A stretch of 50,472 bases of DNA. Source: Candidatus Woesearchaeota archaeon B3_Woes. Lineage in GTDB: Archaea > Nanobdellota > Nanobdellia > Woesearchaeales > B3-WOES. The stretch lies in the NCBI GenBank assembly GCA_005222965.1, contig NJBG01000001.1, positions 499,061 through 549,532 on the forward strand. Reading direction: 5' to 3'. How positions within the stretch are numbered: position 1 is the first letter of the stretch; every line of letters begins with the position of its first letter. Below the pieces are notes generated by a model, which ran no database searches, had not been told where the DNA came from, and was given only the letters and a program-made list of their open reading frames with translations. Shown here piece by piece: positions 6,655 through 10,152 of the stretch. Both the position numbers and the translations under genes were made by a program.

Positions 6655-8256
6655 ATGCCCACACTAAAACAAACACTAAAAGGAAAATTAACAAGACAAG
6701 AACTGCAGCTAGTCCCCTCATCATTCGATGTAGTTGGTTCTATCCTGATTTTCTCAGAGTTTCCTAAAGAATTAGAAAGAAAAGAAAAAATAATTGCTCA
6801 ATCTTTAATCAAAGAATTAAAAAACGTAAAAACAATTTGTAAAAAAACAAGAAAATACTCTGGTAAACACAGAACACCAAAACTAAAAATTATGGCTGGA
6901 GAAAAAACAAAAGAAACAATACATAAAGAAAACAATATAACACTAAAACTAGATGTTGAAAAGGTTTATTTCTCCTCCCGACTCTCTAACGAAAGATTAA
7001 GAATTTCTAAATTAATAAAACCAAAAGAAAATGTTCTTGTTATGTTTTCGGGTTGTGCACCTTATCCTTGTGTAATAGCTAAAAACACTAAAGCGAACTC
7101 AATCATAGGAATTGAAATAAATCCTGTTGCTCACAAATATGCCCTTGAAAATATCAAACTAAACAAAATAACCAACACAACATTACATAAAGGCGATGTA
7201 AACAACATTTTACCAAAAATAGATTTTGAAGGAATAGCATTAAAATCAAGATGGCATAAAAAATATATTGGACCAAAACTAAAACAAAACCCCCCTTTAA
7301 TAGAATTTTATCTTCCAGAAGGAGATCTTGAATCTGATAAAAAACGAAAACAGATGGACAAAACAATAAAAAAACTTGCAAAAAAACAAATTAAAGTTAT
7401 GATCCATTCACCTCACGTTTATAACAAATCTAGGGAAATGTATTTAGCACAACACCCAGCAAAAATAAAGAACATAATAGAATGCATCAAAAAATTAGAT
7501 TCTGTCCAAAAAAATAATAAAAATGTTGTAGGACACATCTTTCACTCATCAGACGATAGATTAAAAAAAGACCACAAAGAAGAATGGTTGATTAAAAACA
7601 TAAAAACACTAAAAAAACTAGATTTATTAAAATACCTCTATCTTGAAAATGGAACAACAAAACCATTTGGTACAAAAAAAAGCATATTAAATGTTATTAA
7701 AAAAACACAACTAAAAAACATGTGCTTTGATTTTGCCCATTTTATGTATCTAAACAAAAAACTAACACTTGATGATTTCAAACAAATAAATTCTAAAACA
7801 AAACTATATAATCATGCAGTTAATCATAAATACAACAGTGGAGAACACTGTTGCAGATTAAGAGAAGGGGATCTTGATTTTAGAAAATTTGCAAAATACA
7901 TAGATTTCGGTTGTGTAGAAGTATATAGCAAAAGCGAAATAACAGCAAAAGAACAAATCGAAGACTATAAATATTTTTTATCAATAAAACCAACCAAAAA
8001 ATTTGACAGAATTCTAATGCCCCTCCCAAAATCAGCAGAAGATTATCTTGATTTAGCATTAACAAGAACAAAAAAAGGAACAATAATACATTTTTATGAT
8101 TTCCTAAATGAAAAAGAATTTGATTTAGCCAAACAAAAAGTGGAAAAAGCATGCAAAAAGGCAGAAAAGAAATTTAAAGTACTGAACCTTGTTAAATGCG
8201 GCCAATTCGCACCAAAAACATACAGAATCTGTTTAGATTTCAAGATATTATCATAA
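6655..8256 (+). CDS. Trm5/Tyw2-type tRNA methyltransferase interrupted by a TIM-barrel-like domain
   Basis: The outer parts match archaeal Trm5/Taw2-type enzymes that act on G37 of tRNA. They show an N-terminal region like Trm5 domains D1-D2 (1-95) and a Rossmann SAM site (127-160, MFSGCAPYP and GIEINPVAHKYA). After the GDV motif (180-182) the fold breaks off. It resumes at about 449 with FDRILMPLPKSAEDYLDLAL and IIHFYDF, the classical late methyltransferase strands. The intervening 250 residues look like an endonuclease IV/xylose-isomerase-like TIM barrel: HSPH (251-254), GHIFHSSDD (293-301), YLENG (329-333), CFDFAHFMY (357-365) and H398 plus EGDLDF. Normal family length is about 330-350; this protein has 533. 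It is the last gene of the fen transcript. The methyltransferase call is strong; the nature of the insert is inferred. Confidence 0.8.
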   Translation: MPTLKQTLKGKLTRQELQLVPSSFDVVGSILIFSEFPKELERKEKIIAQSLIKELKNVKTICKKTRKYSGKHRTPKLKIMAGEKTKETIHKENNITLKLDVEKVYFSSRLSNERLRISKLIKPKENVLVMFSGCAPYPCVIAKNTKANSIIGIEINPVAHKYALENIKLNKITNTTLHKGDVNNILPKIDFEGIALKSRWHKKYIGPKLKQNPPLIEFYLPEGDLESDKKRKQMDKTIKKLAKKQIKVMIHSPHVYNKSREMYLAQHPAKIKNIIECIKKLDSVQKNNKNVVGHIFHSSDDRLKKDHKEEWLIKNIKTLKKLDLLKYLYLENGTTKPFGTKKSILNVIKKTQLKNMCFDFAHFMYLNKKLTLDDFKQINSKTKLYNHAVNHKYNSGEHCCRLREGDLDFRKFAKYIDFGCVEVYSKSEITAKEQIEDYKYFLSIKPTKKFDRILMPLPKSAEDYLDLALTRTKKGTIIHFYDFLNEKEFDLAKQKVEKACKKAEKKFKVLNLVKCGQFAPKTYRICLDFKILS

Positions 8257-8258
8257 AA

Positions 8259-8266
8259 TATTTAAA
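8259..8266 (+). promoter_or_regulatory. TATA-like box of the sRNA gene
   Basis: TATTTAAA starts just after the methyltransferase stop codon. Its centre is 26.5 nt before 8289, the first base of the terminal stem of the small RNA. The same octamer and spacing precede the dihydrouridine synthase and cutA genes in this window. Confidence 0.65.
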
Positions 8267-8288
8267 AACAAAAACATTATTCTATTAC

Positions 8289-8353
8289 GCATGCAATGAT
8301 GATGTGAACACCAATAGCAAATTGTGCTATACGGAAGTAACTGCTGAGCATGC
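8289..8353 (+). ncRNA. Candidate C/D box guide sRNA
   Basis: The 65-nt element has a perfect terminal stem, GCATGC 8289-8294 with GCATGC 8348-8353. A consensus C box ATGATGA lies at 8296-8302 and a consensus D box CTGA at 8344-8347, directly against the stem, as in a kink-turn bound by L7Ae. A run of seven T follows (8354-8360), a likely terminator, and a TATA-like box is placed exactly for a start at 8289. The guide next to box D (8332-8343, CGGAAGTAACTG) would direct 2'-O-methylation of the U pairing with A8339 in a target reading CAGUUACUUCCG. Internal D'/C' boxes are not clear. Instead ATAGCA 8314-8319 pairs with TGCTAT 8325-8330. The target was not identified. Confidence 0.72.
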
Positions 8354-8360
8354 TTTTTTT
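8354..8360 (+). terminator. Oligo-T terminator of the sRNA
   Basis: Seven T residues directly follow the closing GCATGC stem of the small RNA. Archaeal RNA polymerase terminates at such T tracts. The convergent M29 peptidase gene ends at 8368, so termination here would also keep the two transcripts apart. Confidence 0.5.
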
Positions 8361-8367
8361 AGAAATC

Positions 8368-10152
8368 TTAAACAACAAACTTCCCTTTCTTTATTATCCA
8401 ATGGTTTTTGTGTTTACTATCTACTCCATAGACATCCATCTTTTGTCGTGGAGAATTGATTACCATATCCCAATGATACAACGTTTTTCTGTCCGGCTCA
8501 AACCCCATCCCCATTGCAACGTGCATCATCCTTGCTATTTTTTCATTAACAATCAAATAATCACATAATTTTGCTTTAGGATTTAGATTTACAGCAAATT
8601 CCCCAATATAATTAAAACACCTTCTGTACATTTTAGTCATAGAAACAGGCAAGGCCTTTTTATCCTCTATGTTCCTTATCTTTTCCATAGCATCGTCCTT
8701 TGTTGTTTTCATTTTATCTAATATTTTCTTTGGACCACTAACTACTGTATATTTGTTATCTTTTACTTTTATCACCAAAGGCTGTTTTGGATTTAATCTA
8801 TAGCTTTGGTCAATACTAATTACAACATCTCCAACAATTAATCCTTCTAATTTTTCAGGTGTTACAAAAGCCTCACCAGAAGGAAAATTAGCATACAATC
8901 CAGATTTTATTCCGGTTGCTTTATAATACTCTTGATCAATTTTAGTTGTAACATCAGAATCAGAAGCAATAAAATACCTTCTAATTTTTTTATCATCACT
9001 AACAAGACAAACAGTAAAATCTGTTTTCAAACCATTTTTTTCTTCACCAATCACCCTTATCCTATCACACTTATCTAAAATTGATTTTATTTTTTTGCTC
9101 CTCTTTCTAATTTTTTCATAATCAACATCACAAGTTTCAATAAAAATGTCTATAGGCAAGGTTTCAGTCATTGCATACCTCATTATTGGGTCCCTTGTTT
9201 CATATTTTGTTTGAGCTTCATACCTATCTTTTAACATCATCTGACCAGGACTCGTCCATCTTGATTTTTTGTTCAGAGTAGGATACCCAATACTTTCTCC
9301 AAAAAACATTTTTCCAGTATATCCTTTCCCATGTATACCAAAACCAGCATCGTTTAACTCAATTTTTTCCGCACCGAGTATAGGGGACAAAATCTTAAAT
9401 TTCTTAAAGACTTCTTCATCAACTTCTTTATCTAACTCGCATCCAATCAAAGTAGACATTAAATCAATAGTCCTTACACTATTCGCCAAAACAGAAAACT
9501 TATTTGTTGATGAACCCAACCCAACATTAGCTTTTAATCTCCTAGCTTCTAACGCCATAGCCATAGCCATACTATAAGAATCCAAATAATCTTTTAAAGG
9601 GAGCTCTAAATCTTCTTTTTTTGGGATTGTCTCAAAACTTATTCCTAATCTTTCATTCTTTTTAATATCATAACCTTTTTTTAATAGGGTATTAACAGTA
9701 CCTACTAATTCATTCCATCTATATTTTTTATACCATGAAAATTTATATTCCAAATCAAGTGTTCCTGTGAATCCTTTTTCTGTAGAATACAATAATAATT
9801 CTGGTTTTTTGAAAATATTCTTAAAAACTTTTGTTTTTGTTCTTTTGTTCACTTCATTAATAAAACTTTTTAGTGCTTTGGTTTTCTCAGTCTCTAACCC
9901 CTTTCTCATATCATGATAAATATTCCATACTTTCTTTAAAACCAAAAAATTTTCAGATTCTTTATGTTTAACAAGAACATGTAGTTCTCCATCTAAGTTA
10001 TGAACAGCTCTACTTAAGGGAGCAATTGAAAAAAAGGCCTTTTTATTAGTCAGATCACACACCAAAAACAACAATTTATTATTAACTTTACCTCTCAAAG
10101 AATTCTCATAATATTTAACATCGCTCTCAAATTTTTTACTACTATACTTCAT
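8368..10152 (-). CDS. M29-family (aminopeptidase T/AmpS-like) metallopeptidase
   Basis: M29 enzymes are two-metal cytoplasmic aminopeptidases. The C-terminal half keeps the metal ligands and the catalytic pair in order: E427 (FPSGEAF), E518 (YIGEFAVNLNP), H544 (MMHVAMGMG), Y559, H560 and D562 (LYHWDMV). The protein is 594 residues against about 370-410 in the family, so roughly 170-190 residues are extra. They lie mostly before residue 200, with a further region at about 265-330 that contains GKGYTGKMFFGESIGYP. Its ATG overlaps the TGA of the M24 gene by 4 bp, so both peptidases are probably made together to finish peptide breakdown. Substrate unknown. Confidence 0.75.
   Translation of the reverse strand: MKYSSKKFESDVKYYENSLRGKVNNKLLFLVCDLTNKKAFFSIAPLSRAVHNLDGELHVLVKHKESENFLVLKKVWNIYHDMRKGLETEKTKALKSFINEVNKRTKTKVFKNIFKKPELLLYSTEKGFTGTLDLEYKFSWYKKYRWNELVGTVNTLLKKGYDIKKNERLGISFETIPKKEDLELPLKDYLDSYSMAMAMALEARRLKANVGLGSSTNKFSVLANSVRTIDLMSTLIGCELDKEVDEEVFKKFKILSPILGAEKIELNDAGFGIHGKGYTGKMFFGESIGYPTLNKKSRWTSPGQMMLKDRYEAQTKYETRDPIMRYAMTETLPIDIFIETCDVDYEKIRKRSKKIKSILDKCDRIRVIGEEKNGLKTDFTVCLVSDDKKIRRYFIASDSDVTTKIDQEYYKATGIKSGLYANFPSGEAFVTPEKLEGLIVGDVVISIDQSYRLNPKQPLVIKVKDNKYTVVSGPKKILDKMKTTKDDAMEKIRNIEDKKALPVSMTKMYRRCFNYIGEFAVNLNPKAKLCDYLIVNEKIARMMHVAMGMGFEPDRKTLYHWDMVINSPRQKMDVYGVDSKHKNHWIIKKGKFVV

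Follow-up and report, generated by a model that had tools for sequence, protein, structure and literature searches.

A box C/D sRNA family of Woesearchaeales in which a Watson-Crick hairpin can take the place of the inner k-loop

The element described here is 65 nt long and lies in a 1.02-Mb archaeal genome, at positions 8289 to 8353 on the plus strand of the window (the whole AT-rich stretch of DNA under analysis, 50,472 nucleotides). It occupies a 111-bp gap (8257-8367) separating the ends of two convergent coding sequences, a TYW2/Trm5-like methyltransferase gene upstream (6655-8256, plus strand; Pfam TRM5-TYW2_MTfase, 6.5e-42) and a gene on the minus strand downstream (8368-10152), and is single-copy in its own genome at E ≤ 0.001. 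The initial annotation had read it as a free-standing C/D box sRNA gene. The C and D boxes and the terminal GCATGC/GCATGC stem lie exactly where that annotation had placed them, and both the seven T's (8354-8360) and the gap between convergent genes are present. The parts are as follows (alignments A1 and A2 and covariance model R1 are described below).

8261-8266, plus strand: TATA-like promoter element TTTAAA within AATATTTAAAAAC, 28 nt 5' of the outer stem
8289-8353, plus strand: C/D box sRNA body, matched by R1 and by an 82%-identical homologue
8289-8294, plus strand: 5' arm of the outer stem, GCATGC, pairing with 8348-8353; covariation in A1
8296-8302, plus strand: C box, ATGATGA, from the sequence
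8303-8314, plus strand: D' guide, 12 nt, containing GTGAACACC; best duplex in own rRNA
8314-8330, plus strand: internal Watson-Crick hairpin, in register with the D'/C' k-loop (alignment A2, covariation); stem ATAGCA/TGCTAT at 8314-8319/8325-8330, with 8315-8318 at the D' position and 8325-8330 at the C' position
8331-8343, plus strand: D guide, 13 nt with one bulged base; best own-rRNA duplex, guide-target covariation
8344-8347, plus strand: D box, CTGA, from the sequence; CTGA or ATGA in most relatives
8348-8353, plus strand: 3' arm of the outer stem, GCATGC, pairing with 8289-8294
8354-8360, plus strand: T7 tract, probable terminator, from the sequence

In the TYW2/Trm5-like coding sequence, an insert of some 230 residues (7231-8034) splits the methyltransferase domain; it weakly resembles TIM barrels of the xylose-isomerase-like kind (AP_endonuc_2, E = 0.0091, below the cut-off). 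By eye, the homologous gene in the other genome of the family (locus L005 of G001) is continuous and lacks this insert. The convergent gene encodes 594 aa, whose C-terminal part weakly resembles M29 metalloproteases (E = 0.0071, also below the cut-off).

With a C box of the RUGAUGA form (ATGATGA), a D box of the CUGA form (CTGA) near the other end and a terminal stem, the element has the outer layout of a box C/D sRNA. The C box of most relatives reads ATGATTA, ATGATTT, ATGATGA or similar, mostly departing from RUGAUGA, and many relatives combine ATGATTA (C) with ATGA (D). The genome also has the fibrillarin and Nop5 expected of an organism with box C/D sRNAs: two genes adjacent to each other encode fibrillarin (E = 1.3e-81) and a Nop domain (1.4e-52).

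Upstream of the sRNA lies TATTTAAA, with TTTAAA starting at 8261. Among the 116 members with 60 nt of upstream sequence, 74 carry a TATA-like hexamer between -42 and -20, where shuffling gives 15 on average. The hexamer start positions form a sharp peak at -31 to -27 from the outer stem, inside which the TTTAAA of the window (-28) falls. This conserved position supports the own promoter claimed in the initial annotation. The T-terminator claimed alongside it holds in part: the T7 tract is present in the window, and a terminator of this kind is not general, because TTTT follows within about 20 nt in only 49 of 122 members. For Nanoarchaeum equitans, an excerpt of PMC3491384 also describes a TTTAAA box, some 26 nt upstream of the start, and an own promoter in only some C/D sRNAs.

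The window sequence alone would not prove a structured RNA, because GCATGC is its own reverse complement and the folding energy of the window RNA is no better than that of its shuffles (z = 0.03); for the nearest relative, the fold is more stable than in shuffled sequences (z = -2.94). It is comparative evidence that establishes one. The only other genome of the family (G001) has a homologue of 82% identity after the same TYW2-like gene, and blastn finds relatives in 143 of the 352 genomes of the order. From 56 distinct members we built A1 (29 sequences of the hairpin type), A2 (43, hairpin and k-loop types) and R1, which matches the window over all 68 positions (77.9 bits, E = 7.4e-22), the window sequence being itself a row of the model. 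R1 has matches in 276 of the 352 order genomes (147 of 180 among those of good quality); in a sample of the phylum 196 of 371 genomes match, 32 of these in other orders of the class, and some matches near E 0.001 to 0.01 may be due to chance. A scan of named genomes with an exact pattern gave 47 matches, all 47 archaeal and titled Woesearchaeota, Nanoarchaeota, Nanoarchaeia or just archaeon; the pattern requires the core strings, so their invariance in this set is not evidence, and the blastn and R1 sets carry no such constraint.

Pairing in A1 was assessed over the outer stem and the internal hairpin. In this alignment, 85.8% of cells are paired (62.0% when shuffled), all 11 pairs show two-sided change (6/6 in the outer stem alone), and the covariation score is 0.664 versus 0.197, a value reached by none of 500 shuffles. 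The covariation is lost when the pairing partners are slid against each other. Rfam 15 contains no family that reaches its gathering score in the window or in 20 loci holding relatives; the weak matches are to SNORD families (best SNORD121A, 21.5 bits against a gathering score of 44), with which the generic C/D layout is shared and no homology is claimed. Among the papers listed by literature searches, none describes the family or its hairpin variant in its title or the opening of its abstract; Lui et al. (2018) and, likewise, Tripp et al. (2017) enter this statement only as cited in PMC7994747. Conservation in close relatives, on which the initial annotation had staked its reading, is thus present across the order. 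Together with outer-stem covariation and rRNA-complementary guides, it supports the C/D box identity and confirms, at the level of sequence, a free-standing box C/D sRNA gene at 8289-8353 on the plus strand, a member of an order-wide family that is new in being absent from Rfam 15.

In the 12-nt spacer after the C box, GTGAACACC adjoins the D' position and pairs with the A-loop of 23S rRNA, GGUGUUCAC. The A-loop gives this guide its best duplex across the genome's own 16S and 23S rRNAs (-15.8, next best -10.5), and 1 of 60 shuffled guides finds an equally good one. GTGAACACC is exact in 115 of 122 members, including 42 of the 46 of the hairpin type. Targets were numbered by counting five nucleotides up from D' or D and aligning to an E. 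coli 23S reference one base shorter than the standard 2904; the fifth nucleotide from D' is then U2601 of the organism's own 23S, equivalent to E. coli U2552 (predicted Um2552). An excerpt of PMC4644070 gives U2552 as a predicted target of C/D guides in five of seven archaea, and A-loop modification at U2552 and/or G2553 was always present in the species tested, according to part of a review (PMC7994747).

The second guide, CGGAAGTAAC, adjoins box D and pairs with 23S GUUACUCCG, one guide base being bulged. An exact 12-nt target, CAGUUACUUCCG, of the kind for which the initial annotation had proposed to search, has no full-length match in the genome's own 16S or 23S; the 23S target needs the bulge, and the bulged match was found from reading relatives. 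The bulged base varies among members (A or T), and it is absent in some, such as L018 and L161, where the D guide pairs perfectly. The best own-rRNA duplex of the D guide is at 23S AGUUACUCCG (-13.2, next best -9.7), and in the bulged pairing the predicted target is own 23S U2458, E. coli U2438 (Um2438). As judged by energy only, this result falls short of significance (18 of 60 shuffled guides do as well somewhere in the rRNA), and one of the 29 own tRNAs reaches -13.3 kcal/mol with the D guide; the assignment therefore rests on conservation, register and covariation. Where guide and 23S were both read, 23S GUUAC goes with guide GUAAC in 9/9 genomes of the order and 23S GCUAC with guide GUAGC in 2/2 genomes of other orders (G360 and G366, the two in which 23S was read among eight other-order members that all carry GUAGC). 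In each case the guide forms the stronger duplex with the 23S of its own genome (e.g., -13.2 versus -8.9 and -13.2 versus -10.8). This covariation supports the second target; it consists of one nucleotide change, which may have been inherited once. A literature search for U2438, archaea and methylation listed a single paper, on mitochondrial rRNA mutations; U2438 is a candidate modification site backed by guide-target covariation.

The two target segments belong to the peptidyl-transferase region, one being the A-loop and the other lying just 5' of the GGGGAUAACAG strand. rRNA complements, also named in the initial annotation as decisive, are thus present for both guides, and its suggestion of a single-guide sRNA gives way to a dual-guide reading, in which each guide is conserved and has a predicted U at the fifth position (U2552 and U2438). 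The sRNA most likely directs 2'-O-methylation of these two 23S sites, predicted as Um2552 and Um2438.

A few members and targets vary. L152 (G239) and L147 (G192) combine the same D guide with another D' guide; that of L152 has its best 23S duplex directly beside the D-guide target, and a second copy in G239 carries the usual D' guide. In G223 (L133), an order genome with no R1 match, the sequence at the 23S target is AAGCTATCCTGG, which would be a poor partner for the usual guide. The distance between the two targets is 136-143 nt in L004 (the organism's own 23S), L131 and L142 and 107 in the others read, which suggests that some 30 nt have been inserted between the targets in these three.

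The initial annotation had noted a short hairpin where D' and C' boxes are usual and suspected an unusual sRNA. Indeed, the hairpin is no unrelated insertion: it occupies exactly the register that the D'/C' k-loop has in relatives. It also covaries. At the hairpin columns L027 and L031 have CTGA..TGATGA, and the full internal stretch of L027, CTGA-TACG-TGATGA, is a canonical D'/C' k-loop. Alignment A2 matches the 5' arm of the hairpin to the D' columns and its 3' arm to the C' columns, with the spacers retained. The C-G, U.U, G.A and A.G pairs of the k-loop correspond in the window to the Watson-Crick pairs T8315-A8329, A8316-T8328, G8317-C8327 and C8318-G8326. Of the 122 sequences read, which come from 121 genomes, tandem G.A pairs are strictly present in 61 and only the A.G pair in 15, and 46, including the window, have a hairpin in place of the internal C'/D' k-turn or k-loop; the set comprises the best-scoring of the hits listed for the 276 genomes and some outgroup hits, and its frequencies are not population estimates. 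The internal region of the window contains no GA dinucleotide, and 38 of 44 parsable hairpin-type sequences lack GA on both sides, a condition that leaves no tandem sheared G.A pairs and hence no ordinary L7Ae site there. These appear to be natural dual-guide sRNAs without one of the L7Ae sites. The own genome contains no match to a strict canonical C/D pattern. We claim the window member as box C/D only as a variant that would work like a C/D guide; its other features and its canonical relatives carry the family membership.

All eight sequences from other orders are of the k-loop type, which is therefore probably ancestral. Six of 47 families are purely of the hairpin type and six are mixed, the latter indicating that the switch recurred; genera g56 and g196 hold both types. 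If families are monophyletic, there were at least six switches between k-loop and hairpin.

We consider it highly probable that the locus holds a dual-guide box C/D sRNA gene with its own TATA promoter, an outer C/D motif, two 23S guides and an inner helix, through which U2438 is methylated and whose D' half directs Um2552 or holds rRNA segments together. Fibrillarin, Nop5 and L7Ae, the last described as universal in archaea in part of PMC5539422, would assemble on the outer C/D motif, a kink-turn closed by the covarying stem, and the assembled site would methylate U2438, which faces the fifth nucleotide of the guide counted from box D. In archaeal sRNPs, L7Ae binds the sheared G.A pairs and Nop5 binds stem II (PMC5389607, excerpt). 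The D' half, presumably without L7Ae, could stay in place through docking of Nop5 on the straightened stem, and its guide would keep the A-loop pairing, leading to Um2552 or holding distant segments together during folding. Against this explanation stand the departure of most relatives' C boxes from RUGAUGA and the absence from the hairpin type of the C'/D' k-turn, which an excerpt of PMC8413462 calls necessary for archaeal sRNPs; the same text describes the inner C'/D' motif as an essential L7Ae site in archaea that is poorly conserved in eukaryotes.

In size, C/D boxes, outer stem, spacers of about 12 nt, guides beside D and D', and peptidyl-transferase targets including U2552, the family resembles archaeal dual-guide box C/D sRNAs (L7Ae/Nop5/fibrillarin). 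It differs in its Watson-Crick hairpin for the D'/C' k-loop, in a D spacer of 13 nt, which in most members includes a bulged base, and in being kept across an order, whereas archaeal guides evolve fast according to an excerpt of PMC7994747. Eukaryotic C/D snoRNAs with a degenerate C'/D' (snR51, snR41 and snR54; PMC8413462, in the part available) likewise have an intact outer C/D, two guides and an inner site unlike that of L7Ae/Snu13; here, in contrast, the inner site is a plain covarying helix that arose repeatedly in archaea, and relatives keep the canonical form. Archaeal guides are generally taken to need two L7Ae-bound kinks, the inner of which eukaryotes are thought to have lost, and a recurrent structural variant runs counter to this rule. 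The family also supplies a conserved rRNA guide for Woesearchaeota-like archaea, and its inner kink, which comes and goes while the guides stay fixed, is a natural experiment on the role of the second site.

An evenly balanced proposition, in our judgment, is that the dual-guide C/D sRNP of this order has repeatedly lost its second L7Ae site, the k-loop turning into a helix of the same register at least six times with the guides fixed, and that the RNP became asymmetric, with Nop5-fibrillarin reaching the D' guide through the helix alone, or the A-loop guide became a folding clamp. An asymmetric RNP has been proposed for eukaryotic snoRNPs.

It is possible, although we lean against it, that in the hairpin type only the D guide works, the A-loop pairing being an accessory or chaperone contact that joins 23S segments and leaves U2552 unmethylated. 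The lack of internal GA in the window and in most hairpin-type members fits such a contact, and chaperone roles of dual guides have been proposed (PMC4644070, excerpt); the D' guide is nevertheless exact in nearly all hairpin-type members and keeps the fifth-position register for U2552, which a mere contact would not need. It is unlikely that this is an ordinary C/D sRNA with a hairpin to which L7Ae still binds in a manner invisible in sequence. L7Ae tolerates a non-canonical C'/D' lacking one G.A pair, but the A.G pair, essential for recognition in the same excerpt (PMC8413462), has become Watson-Crick in the hairpin type. That the guide acts on tRNA rather than rRNA is very improbable: the one tRNA duplex equals the 23S site in energy but requires internal gaps, and it leaves unexplained the change from GUAAC to GUAGC, which follows the 23S. 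Least credible of all is that the two convergent genes have here a bidirectional terminator, or a 3'-UTR hairpin, that resembles a C/D RNA by chance, for although a stem and a T-run do lie in the 111-bp gap, the element is conserved across the order with its own promoter and guide-target covariation, and in G001 the RNA persists where the downstream neighbour is, by eye, a toxin-antitoxin-like pair and not the convergent gene; as sole explanation, a terminator or chance hairpin is refuted by stem covariation, order-wide R1 matches and guide-target covariation. A riboswitch or ribozyme, considered for GTGAACACC..GGAAGTAAC, was rejected, as the next same-strand coding sequence is listed only from 10870 and the conserved strings are rRNA complements.

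G001 has a second copy of the sRNA gene's 3' half (L005, 1545-1574 and 2282-2311; 30 nt, 93% identical). It lies 737 bp downstream, beyond what by eye is the toxin-antitoxin-like gene pair, an arrangement that would fit an element that had inserted itself into the gene and rebuilt the gene's 3' end.
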